Position numbers and translations under genes: made by a program. A stretch of 64,000 nucleotides of DNA, taken from Morinoia aosen. Lineage: Eukaryota > Arthropoda > Malacostraca > Amphipoda > Talitridae. Below the pieces are notes generated by a model. It did no database searches. It had not been told where the DNA came from and worked only from the letters and a program-made list of their open reading frames with translations. Where the stretch lies: NCBI GenBank assembly GCA_030386875.1, contig CM059566.1:40956068-41020067 (forward strand), read 5' to 3'. This document shows, piece by piece, positions 33,368 through 54,457 of the stretch (position 1 is the first letter of the stretch; each line of letters starts with the position of its first letter).

Positions 33368-33600
33368 CCACTCGGAGCAGCTCTGTCGTCCCTCCCGCGT
33401 TTATCAGCAGGAGAATCCAATCAAGCAAATTGTCGGCGTTGATCGCCTATACAAACATGGCGGCTTCCAGGACACAACGGGGCCTGGAGCAGTCAGATGC
33501 CTGGAATATTCCAGGTGCCGGGCAGGCAAGGGGCTCTTAGTGTTCACCAGTCCAACCCCTGGGGAGTATTGGGAACTTACAGAGTGCAGGTGGCGCTTGG
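33368..33600. promoter_or_regulatory. GC-richer single-copy island
   Basis: Contains CGCGTTTATCAGCAGGAG, CAATCAAGCAAATTGTCGGC and ACAAACATGGCGGCTTCC between two minisatellites. Balanced composition and motif-like words suggest a conserved non-coding element, unproven. From 33530 it grades into half-units of the next repeat. Confidence 0.25.
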
Positions 33601-34078
33601 AAACTTTCAGAAGGTTTAGTGTTCTCCAGTCGAACCCCTGAGGAGTACTGGAAACTTTCTGAATGCAGGTGACGCTTGGAAACTTTCTGAATGCAGGTGA
33701 TGCTTGGAAACTTTCTGAATGCAGGTGACGCTTGGAAACTTTCAGAATGCTGGTGACGCTTGGAAACTTTCAGAATGCAGGTGACACTTGGAAACTTCCA
33801 GAATGCAGGTGACGCTTGGAAACTTTCAGAATGCAGGTGACGCTTGGAAACTTTCAGAATGCAGGTGACGCTTGGAAACTTTCAGAATGCAGGTGACGCT
33901 TGGAAACTTTCAGAATGCAGGTGACGCTTGGAAACTTTCAGAATGCAGGTGACGCTTGGAAACTTTCAGAATGCAGGTGACGCTTGGAAACTTTCAGAAT
34001 GCAGGTGACGCTTGGAAACTTTCAGAATGCAGGTGACGCTTTAAAACTTTCAGAATGCTGGTGACGCTTGGTAAGTTC
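33600..34078. repeat. 28-bp minisatellite, about 17 copies
   Basis: The unit contains GAATGCAGGTGACGCTTGG followed by AAACTTTCA. The central copies are identical. Confidence 0.97.
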
Positions 34079-34130
34079 AGAATGTGAATCACTCTGATGT
34101 GGGCCAGACCTGATGTGCAGTGTGAAGCTC

Positions 34131-51506: not shown

Positions 51507-52017
51507 TTAACACTTTGACCACAACGTGCGCCACCGGTGGCCACGGAGGGGATTTCCAAAATGTTGGTGACCGACCAGTAGACACAAACTTAGTTTTCAT
51601 AAATACTTAATTAAAACTAAATAAAGGCATGATACAGTCAATGTTTGCCATTTTCAAAAATTCTTGCTAAAATTAACTTTAAATTTTAGTTGAATATTGA
51701 ACTTTAGTATCACAAACTGCAGTTTAAGAGTTAATTAAAACCAGTTAATGTTTGCCATTTCAAAATTCCTTACCAAAATTGCTTTCAAATTTTAGTTGAA
51801 TATTGAACTTCAGTTTCACAAATTGCAGTTTAAGAGTTAATTAAAACCAGTTAATGTTTGCCATTTTCAAAATTCCTTACCAAAATTGCTTTCAAATTTT
51901 AGTTTAATATCGAACTTCAGTTTAACAAATTTCGGAAACTGATTGCCAAAATTGCCTTCAAATTTGAGAGTAATATTAAACTTCATTCAGTATAACAAAC
52001 TACGCTACAAGTGTTAA
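51507..52017. mobile_element. piggyBac-like MITE with internal tandem expansion
   Basis: The 511-bp element begins TTAACACTTTGACC and ends CTACAAGTGTTAA. The ends are short inverted repeats and both carry TTAA, the piggyBac target and duplication sequence. The first 130 bases align with the shorter copy at 54225-54457. Inside, a 106-107 bp segment with ATGTTTGCCATTT, AATTTTAGTTGAATAT and AACTTCAGTTTCACAAA is repeated about 3.5 times (starts at 51641, 51748, 51854). No transposase is encoded. Confidence 0.8.
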
Positions 52018-54224: not shown

Positions 54225-54457
54225 TTAACACTTTGACTGCCTCGTGAGCCACATTTGGTCACAATGGGGGAGTTTTCATTATGCTGCTGACCAACCAATA
54301 GCCGCAAACTCAATTTTAAAAATGCTTAATTAAAACTGAATGATGACAGGATCCAGTTAGTGTTTGATAATTTTGCAACATTGCTCACTGCAACAGACTT
54401 TAAATTTTAATAGAACATTGCACTTCAGTTTTACTTGCTGCAGTCAACAAGTGTTAG
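54225..54457. mobile_element. piggyBac-like MITE, short form
   Basis: This 233-bp copy begins TTAACACTTTGACTGCC and ends CAACAAGTGTTAG; the last base breaks the TTAA. Shared blocks with 51507-52017 include CTTAATTAAAACTRAAT and TTTAAATTTTA. It contains a single copy of the segment that is tandemly repeated in the longer element. Confidence 0.78.

Follow-up and report, generated by a model that had tools for sequence, protein, structure and literature searches.

In the window, by which we mean the whole stretch of 64,000 nucleotides analysed here (C11:40956068-41020067 of the 1.99-Gb assembly with 29 contigs), an old copy of a very abundant piggyBac-type MITE acquired extra right halves derived from itself, most likely after it had inserted at this site. 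Similar births of tandem repeats occurred in related elements and probably did so repeatedly. We assign this reading as a whole a probability of roughly 0.8. It is supported by the TTAA-bounded junctions of the unit, by the array form standing alone among the scored members of its family and by the derived letters that the first additional unit shares with the element it adjoins.

The MITE family

The end motif TTAACACTTTGAC showed 11,655 exact matches in the genome, compared with 280 for the same pattern read backward, and marks a repeat family and not a chance occurrence. Within the window alone, and with up to two mismatches, it was no commoner than in shuffled sequences. The profile of this family was built from 21 and then from 55 copies and has a length of 227-229 positions, with the single form of the MITE measuring about 229 bp. 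The consensus ends form short terminal inverted repeats, TTAACACTTTGACTGCGAC ... GTCGCAGTCAAAGTGTTA(A), and of 48 full-length profile matches, 33 had TTAA at their 5' end, 34 had it at their 3' end and 25 had it at both. At one locus (L012) an inserted MITE was flanked by one TTAA per side at the internal TTAA of another copy, and the letters flanking the insert rejoin as AAATACTTAATCAAAGC, which is the consensus site. The family therefore shows the TTAA target-site duplication, the short terminal inverted repeats and the short, high-copy and putatively non-coding form that characterize piggyBac-type MITEs, and from its ends and target site we take it to be piggyBac-type.

For the transposase domain DDE_Tnp_1_7 (PF13843) there were 2,398 candidates in the genome, and many of the best 116 scored contained apparently open frames of more than 550 aa. 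As these 116 also included groups of equal score, the piggyBac superfamily may have been recently active in this genome. An Rfam search over the window returned no match at gathering scores.

Among the first 100 places with TTAACACTTTGAC we found 18 exact end pairs at most 600 bp apart, of which 16 spanned 220-248 bp and the two longer ones, L011 and L012, contained an insertion and not an array. L012 (455 bp) had been considered as a second tandem case and turned out to be the nested insertion described above; in L011 (530 bp) the MITE is interrupted by other DNA, and a stretch of this DNA shows 94.8% similarity to a stretch of L020. A candidate autonomous element at L009/L010 (2,258-bp span, opposite ends) was likewise rejected, as it consists of two MITEs around other DNA, with L009 and L010 being near-copies. 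These MITEs insert in or beside one another, as seen at the internal TTAA of L012 (C1:15076810-15077264) and at L084, where one lies directly at the end of another.

Anatomy of the two copies in the window

The long copy at 51507-52017 (plus strand, like all features given here) begins with a complete piggyBac-like MITE of 228 bp running from TTAA to TTAA (51507-51734, profile match 1-228). This is the single-unit part of the long copy, and its K2P distance to the family consensus is 0.21. From the TTAA list and the unit alignment, an internal TTAATTAA at 51607-51614 is the left breakpoint of the tandem unit, and the right terminal repeat of the original MITE, GCAGTTTAAGAGTTAA (51719-51734; consensus right end GCAGTCAAAGTGTTA(A)), makes the first unit junction. 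Alignments and inspection by eye resolved four right-half copies. The first, u1, lies within the full MITE. It is followed by u2 (51735-51840, 106 bp), which again carries the right terminal repeat at its end, by u3 (51841-51932), which is missing its right end and has a K2P distance of 0.04 (0.038) to u2, and by u4 (51933-52017), which is missing its left part and has the outer TTAA at its end. A stretch of 17 bp of u1 is absent from both u2 and u3. TRF reported a tandem array at 51635-51931 with a period of 106 and 2.8 copies. The last unit shares derived letters with u2 (10/19) and with u3 (10/15) and is therefore part of the array.

The unit junctions at 51731 and 51837 read GAGTTAATTAAAACC. 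Here the end of the right terminal repeat passes directly into the TTAATTAA that lies internally at 51607-51614, so that each unit is a right half of the MITE. The tandem unit spans from the internal TTAATTAA to the terminal TTAA. The earlier note had counted about 3.5 tandem copies, which fits four right halves with u3 lacking its right end and u4 its left part. It had further taken the repeat unit to be an internal segment, and this is refuted by the reading of the junctions: the unit is the terminal right half and carries the right terminal repeat.

The second copy, at 54225-54457, is a single-unit copy of the same MITE family with its internal TTAATTAA at 54326-54333 (TTAA list), and the description of it as carrying one unit was borne out. 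Both copies had been said to lie between the same TTAA-bounded ends. They do share TTAACACTTTGAC, whose exact matches in the window start at 51507 and 54225, but the right end of the short copy reads TTAG and not TTAA. The identity of the two copies is 72% over 221 bp, and neither is therefore the direct parent of the other.

Origin of the right-half array

A genome search with all 511 bases of the long copy gave 6,914 candidates, of which 40 were scored. All 39 scored loci other than the window copy aligned within positions 1-235 of the query only, that is with the single MITE part, and the window copy aligned over 1-511. Members of the family thus normally have one unit, and the array most probably arose where it now stands, the window array form being alone among the 40 scored of 6,914 candidates. 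Of the derived letters of u1, 15 out of 24 comparable ones were found in u2, while the best of 54 other copies had 11/27 and the median fraction was 0.11. As this sharing exceeds that of all 54 other copies, u2 most likely derives from the adjoining MITE. K2P distances were 0.135 for u1 against u2 and 0.038 for u2 against u3, compared with 0.21 for the MITE against the consensus. These values would suit an array that is younger than the element and that grew slowly. The single-unit state of the 39 other loci and the letters shared by u1 and u2 support the claim of the earlier note that a tandem repeat was born inside a transposon.

The opposite course, in which a parent element already contained the array and the 229-bp form arose by deletion, was the case that the earlier note had set against its own idea. 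Published MITEs do hold arrays, and miDNA4 is described in an excerpt of PMC12628747 as having captured a pre-existing repeat. Here, a parent element with a native array was not found: there was no second unit in the alignments of the 39 other scored loci, of 6,914 candidates, and the exact end pairs were almost all of single-element span (16/18 with 220-248 bp), L011 and L012 being longer through insertion. We therefore regard a native array as highly improbable. The same junctions would also be expected if a MITE had inserted into the internal TTAA of another and this host copy had later lost its left half, so that a full MITE preceded a right half, after which the right halves multiplied. 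L012 provides an actual case of such an insertion, with AAATACTTAATCAAAGC restored when the flanking letters are joined. Upstream of 51507, however, we saw no left half and no profile match, and the share of derived letters common to u1 and u2 (15/24, against at most 11/27 in 54 other copies) argues against an arrival of u2 from elsewhere, which makes nested self-insertion quite unlikely.

We favor a stepwise growth of the array in place. The internal TTAATTAA and the terminal TTAA would have been the two sites of a slippage or unequal exchange that made the first duplication, followed by the 17-bp deletion and then by a later duplication giving u2 and u3; a single deletion would account for the fusion of u3 and u4. 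The breakpoints of the window copy share 4 to 8 letters only (TTAA/TTAATTAA), which is weak for slippage, and since the 17 bp missing from u2 and u3 lie near the junction, the first junction may have arisen in a more complex way. PiggyBac transposase cuts at TTAA and leaves TTAA overhangs. The first duplication could have come from two cuts by this enzyme, one in the terminal TTAA and one in the internal TTAATTAA, with the equal overhangs subsequently joined head to tail. The window copy has TTAA at both breakpoints, three other loci also show right-half pairs, and PF13843 candidates are abundant (2,398), yet slippage at a microhomology of 4-8 bp yields the same junction, and we consider an involvement of the transposase unlikely. 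If it did take part, the target motif of the transposon would, within the transposon itself, be a birth site of tandem repeats.

The three other loci come from a genome search with two right-half units, in which 40 of 2,537 candidates were scored. Two successive right-half units were matched with 72-74% identity at C21:110836029, C2:35082936 and C18:55858093, and C16:55211362 matched one right-half unit and part of another.

Left-half arrays in a related subfamily

A profile scan of 298,526 bp met, unsought, a related MITE in which a left-half unit of 41 bp is repeated in 46.2 copies (L041:4452-6514). A search with this array gave 187 candidates, of which 40 were scored. All 20 loci fetched from stronger matches contained arrays with a period of 40-41 and 3.6 to 35 copies (TRF), with arrays running past the fetched stretch at the end of L067 and L068 and at the start of L053. 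Five loci from weaker matches had two units (L075, L076), three units (L078 and, by eye, L074) or one unit (L077). In total, 24 of the 25 array loci fetched for such matches had at least two units, up to 35, compared with 46 in the chance find L041. MITE sequence on both sides of the array (profile left start at most 12 and right end at least 200) was present in at least 7 of 21 elements among the matches listed for L041 and the first twenty loci, namely L041, L050, L051, L054, L060, L064 and L065. An exact two-unit pattern had 123 matches in the genome and none in the control. The first 100 of these 123 matches fell into 11 loci, eight of them outside the 40 scored, and match spacing indicated an array of about 51 units at C19:19519376.

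The array-bearing elements, whose left ends resemble CATTGACTGCTTGGTGACCC, are relatives of the main family. The similarity of units was 0.89-0.97 within a locus (13 arrays with at least 8 units) and had a mean of 0.73 and a maximum of 0.89 between loci, in a comparison in which the row of L084 mixes two adjacent elements and the near-copies L075/L076 and L050/L051 are included. Units being alike within a locus and less so between loci fits local growth. The earlier note had proposed that a spectrum from one to many units would support its idea. Such a spectrum exists, with 0, 1, 2, 3 and up to 46 units, but in a left-half segment of about 41 bp and in a related subfamily.

Several further observations were made on these arrays. 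On C22, between 25.8 and 47.9 Mb, we found 11 of the 40 scored 41-bp array loci, although this contig makes up 2.6% of the genome (binomial p 5e-9); with neighbours and a duplicated pair merged, the count was 9/38 (p 5e-7). Only 2 of 44 subfamily left ends (0-1 mismatches) lay on C22, where array growth, and not the presence of elements, seems to be concentrated. At C24:7435948-7436325 the MITE left end itself is repeated with a 32-bp period and ten one-mismatch matches, which is a third kind of array in the family. At L086 (C6:79643808-79644258) a subfamily left end is followed by a different sequence that itself consists of 2.5 repeats of period 41.

Unit numbers in elements sampled by their left end

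The left end TTGACTGCTTGGTGACCCACCGGTGG had 6 exact matches and 525 matches with at most three mismatches in the genome, and none in the controls. We sampled 29 of the first 30 listed places (C3:15708769 was left out). At least two units were found in 5 of the 29, no unit in 4, and one unit or an unclear number in 20. The places with two or more units were L060, L075, L098 (by eye), C17:33381582 and C11:50249805, with the counts for the last two coming from alignments and pattern matches only. In the zero-unit places L080, L085, L095 and L096 a single seed is directly followed by sequence resembling that which otherwise follows the second seed (by eye). Reciprocal loss products, which are expected of a minisatellite of the Haber-Louis type, are thus present. 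Among the 20 places with one or an unclear number of units, two seeds were recognised in 12 and one seed in 8; the latter (L073, L079, L081, L086-L089 and L091) were classed by eye as decayed one-unit elements, of which L086 looks broken.

L069/L070 and L071/L072 are duplicate pairs, so that the sample comprises 27 distinct places. The members of these pairs, on C2 and C10, respectively, are near-identical including their flanks and lie about 0.7 Mb apart on one contig. Further possible pairs on C1-C4, judged by coordinates only, share a pattern variant at distances of 0.5 to 2.3 Mb. Near-identical pairs of this kind are either large duplications or uncollapsed haplotypes of the assembly.

Seeds of the 41-bp arrays

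The 41-bp arrays likely started from a pair of similar GGTGACCCACCGGTGGTCAC stretches, their seeds, with a spacing of about 41 bp. Gain and loss between the two seeds would give elements with 0, 1, 2 and up to about 46 units. In single-unit members of the subfamily the GGTGACCCACCGGTGGTCAC seeds were 37-42 bp apart where both were recognised, and the two seeds of a pair agreed in 8-18 of 20 letters in 15 such elements. The corresponding stretches in 49 copies of the main family agreed in a mean of 9.6 and a maximum of 13 of 20 letters. A direct-repeat pair at the array period is accordingly found in the single-copy form for the 41-bp arrays, and for the window copy the shared stretch is TTAA with 4-8 letters only. 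In the main consensus the longest exact direct repeat also has an offset of 41, and its length was reached at this offset in 2 of 1000 shuffles and at any offset in 95 of 1000. This repeat does not, however, mark the limits of the arrays.

Left-half arrays were present in 0 of 55 elements of the main family and in 5 of 29 of the subfamily sample (Fisher p 0.004), the two samples having been chosen differently and the 55 omitting 6 of 61 copies with scores of at most 90 bits, L041 among these. No close pair (<500 bp) was seen by eye among the first 100 of 4,926 exact main-family motifs. The subfamily is also more diverged than the main family, with a median end branch of 0.33 vs 0.11, so that more time, instead of better seeds, could explain its arrays. 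Seed quality as the cause of the subfamily arrays is therefore a good candidate, but not proven.

One or several births of left-half arrays

A tree of the right halves, with 13 array rows and 14 other rows, required 11 changes of the array label, compared with a shuffled mean of 9.3. A single clade of the 13 array rows was rejected (AU p 7e-6), but the tree is weakly resolved. Of its 24 inner branches 19 are open, the right half was too faint for 10 of 37 rows to be kept, and two rows, L050 and L051, are near-copies. Its starred branches force at least three changes. In a tree including the main family, eight of nine left-half array rows lay outside that family, and L064 and the window copy lay inside. 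Here the array label changed 3 times compared with a shuffled mean of 9.4, and none of 500 shuffles was as low.

It is possible that one founder with at least two 41-bp units was spread by transposition and that each copy then grew or shrank separately. Letters such as GGTGACCCACCGGTGGTCACTGAGGG are common to the 41-bp units, and the clustering of array rows on the tree with the main family (8/9 outside; 3 changes vs 9.4; 0/500) would be expected from such a founder. On the other hand, the same left end occurs in single-unit and zero-unit members, and the arrays are scattered within the subfamily, with one clade rejected at AU p 7e-6 on the weak tree. We consider a common founder rather unlikely. 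A fair reading of the two trees is that there was one array-prone subfamily with probably more than one birth inside it.

Other tandem arrays of the window

The window contains 36 merged arrays of at least 100 bp, which cover 32% of its bases, compared with 7.8% at the other sampled loci. Only the array at 51507-52017 matched the profile of the MITE or of the 41-bp unit. The suggestion that the MITE might be the source of other minisatellites in the window is therefore not supported, with 0 of the 35 other arrays matching these profiles. One of them, at 33537-34084, resembled the MITE to the eye and was rejected, since its profile match had 2.4 bits and an E value of 2.2. Even in the 294-kb sample as a whole, which was chosen around copies of the MITE family, 2 of 75 arrays came from it. 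Only a small part of the numerous minisatellites is attributable to this family. Other transposon origins are possible for the window arrays, whose flanks were compared with the 294-kb sample only, a comparison that families below some thousand copies would escape.

Two of the sampled loci, L020 (C1:142347) and L029 (C1:7530000), are 98.4% alike over 2,008 bp and about 7.4 Mb apart. This duplicate holds a MITE truncated at position 177 and, by eye, a tRNA-like SINE. Its 41-bp array was considered as MITE-derived and was rejected as other sequence, as there was no match to the MITE or unit profiles.

Comparison with known systems

According to excerpts of two sources (PMC12628747, PMC9659126), Xstir of Xenopus (Hikosaka and Kawahara 2004) occurs as MITE, tandem array and composites side by side, and the Xenopus Tc1/mariner MITE miDNA4 (Scalvenzi and Pollet 2014) as a single monomer or as arrays that differ in length, where short AT-rich direct repeats have been proposed to underlie gain and loss. 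The family described here resembles both in having single-unit and array forms of a MITE in one genome. As far as these excerpts go, it differs in three respects: the Xstir and miDNA4 satellites are tied to one MITE each, whereas a single array origin was rejected here on a weak tree; a second segment, the right half, also multiplies here; and miDNA4 is of the Tc1/mariner type whereas our MITE is piggyBac-like.

In human, transposons are the source of at least 23% of minisatellites and satellites according to Ahmed and Liang (2012, PMC3389668), with 300 of 7,276 having flanking direct repeats of 5-20 bp and 136 cases in which a partial Alu adjoins one that is full or nearly so, followed by later growth through local duplication. 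The postulated mechanisms explain only 6% of these transposon-derived starts (PMC3389668). The partial Alu beside a full Alu resembles the right half beside a full MITE in the window. In the human cases the partial copy adjoins the 5' end beside a LINE-1 endonuclease site, whereas here it is at the 3' end and at TTAA. Younger elements gave more arrays in human, whereas here arrays were seen more in the more diverged subfamily. In the model of Haber and Louis, as cited in PMC3389668, a stretch between two short direct repeats is gained or lost, and elements with zero and with many units are both expected. We see no essential difference from this model, of which the family offers many replicate cases.

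Significance

Tandem-repeat birth inside MITEs is thus already published, and it is seen here in an unusually full set of stages. Work by Luchetti from 2015 on the terMITEs of termites reportedly concerns small non-autonomous elements, and work by Satovic and Plohl from 2013 on a clam is said to concern small non-autonomous elements with internal tandem repeats; both were compared by title only. In the open-licence literature, judged by titles and the openings of abstracts, we found no report of a piggyBac MITE with tandem repeats.

The starts of minisatellites are poorly known, and a MITE family with thousands of copies amounts to one experiment run many times from a shared start. Elements with one unit, loss products and elements with two to dozens of units are visible together here, and the quality of the candidate seeds varies between subfamilies. 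The role of short direct repeats in the birth of minisatellites can therefore be tested by counting.
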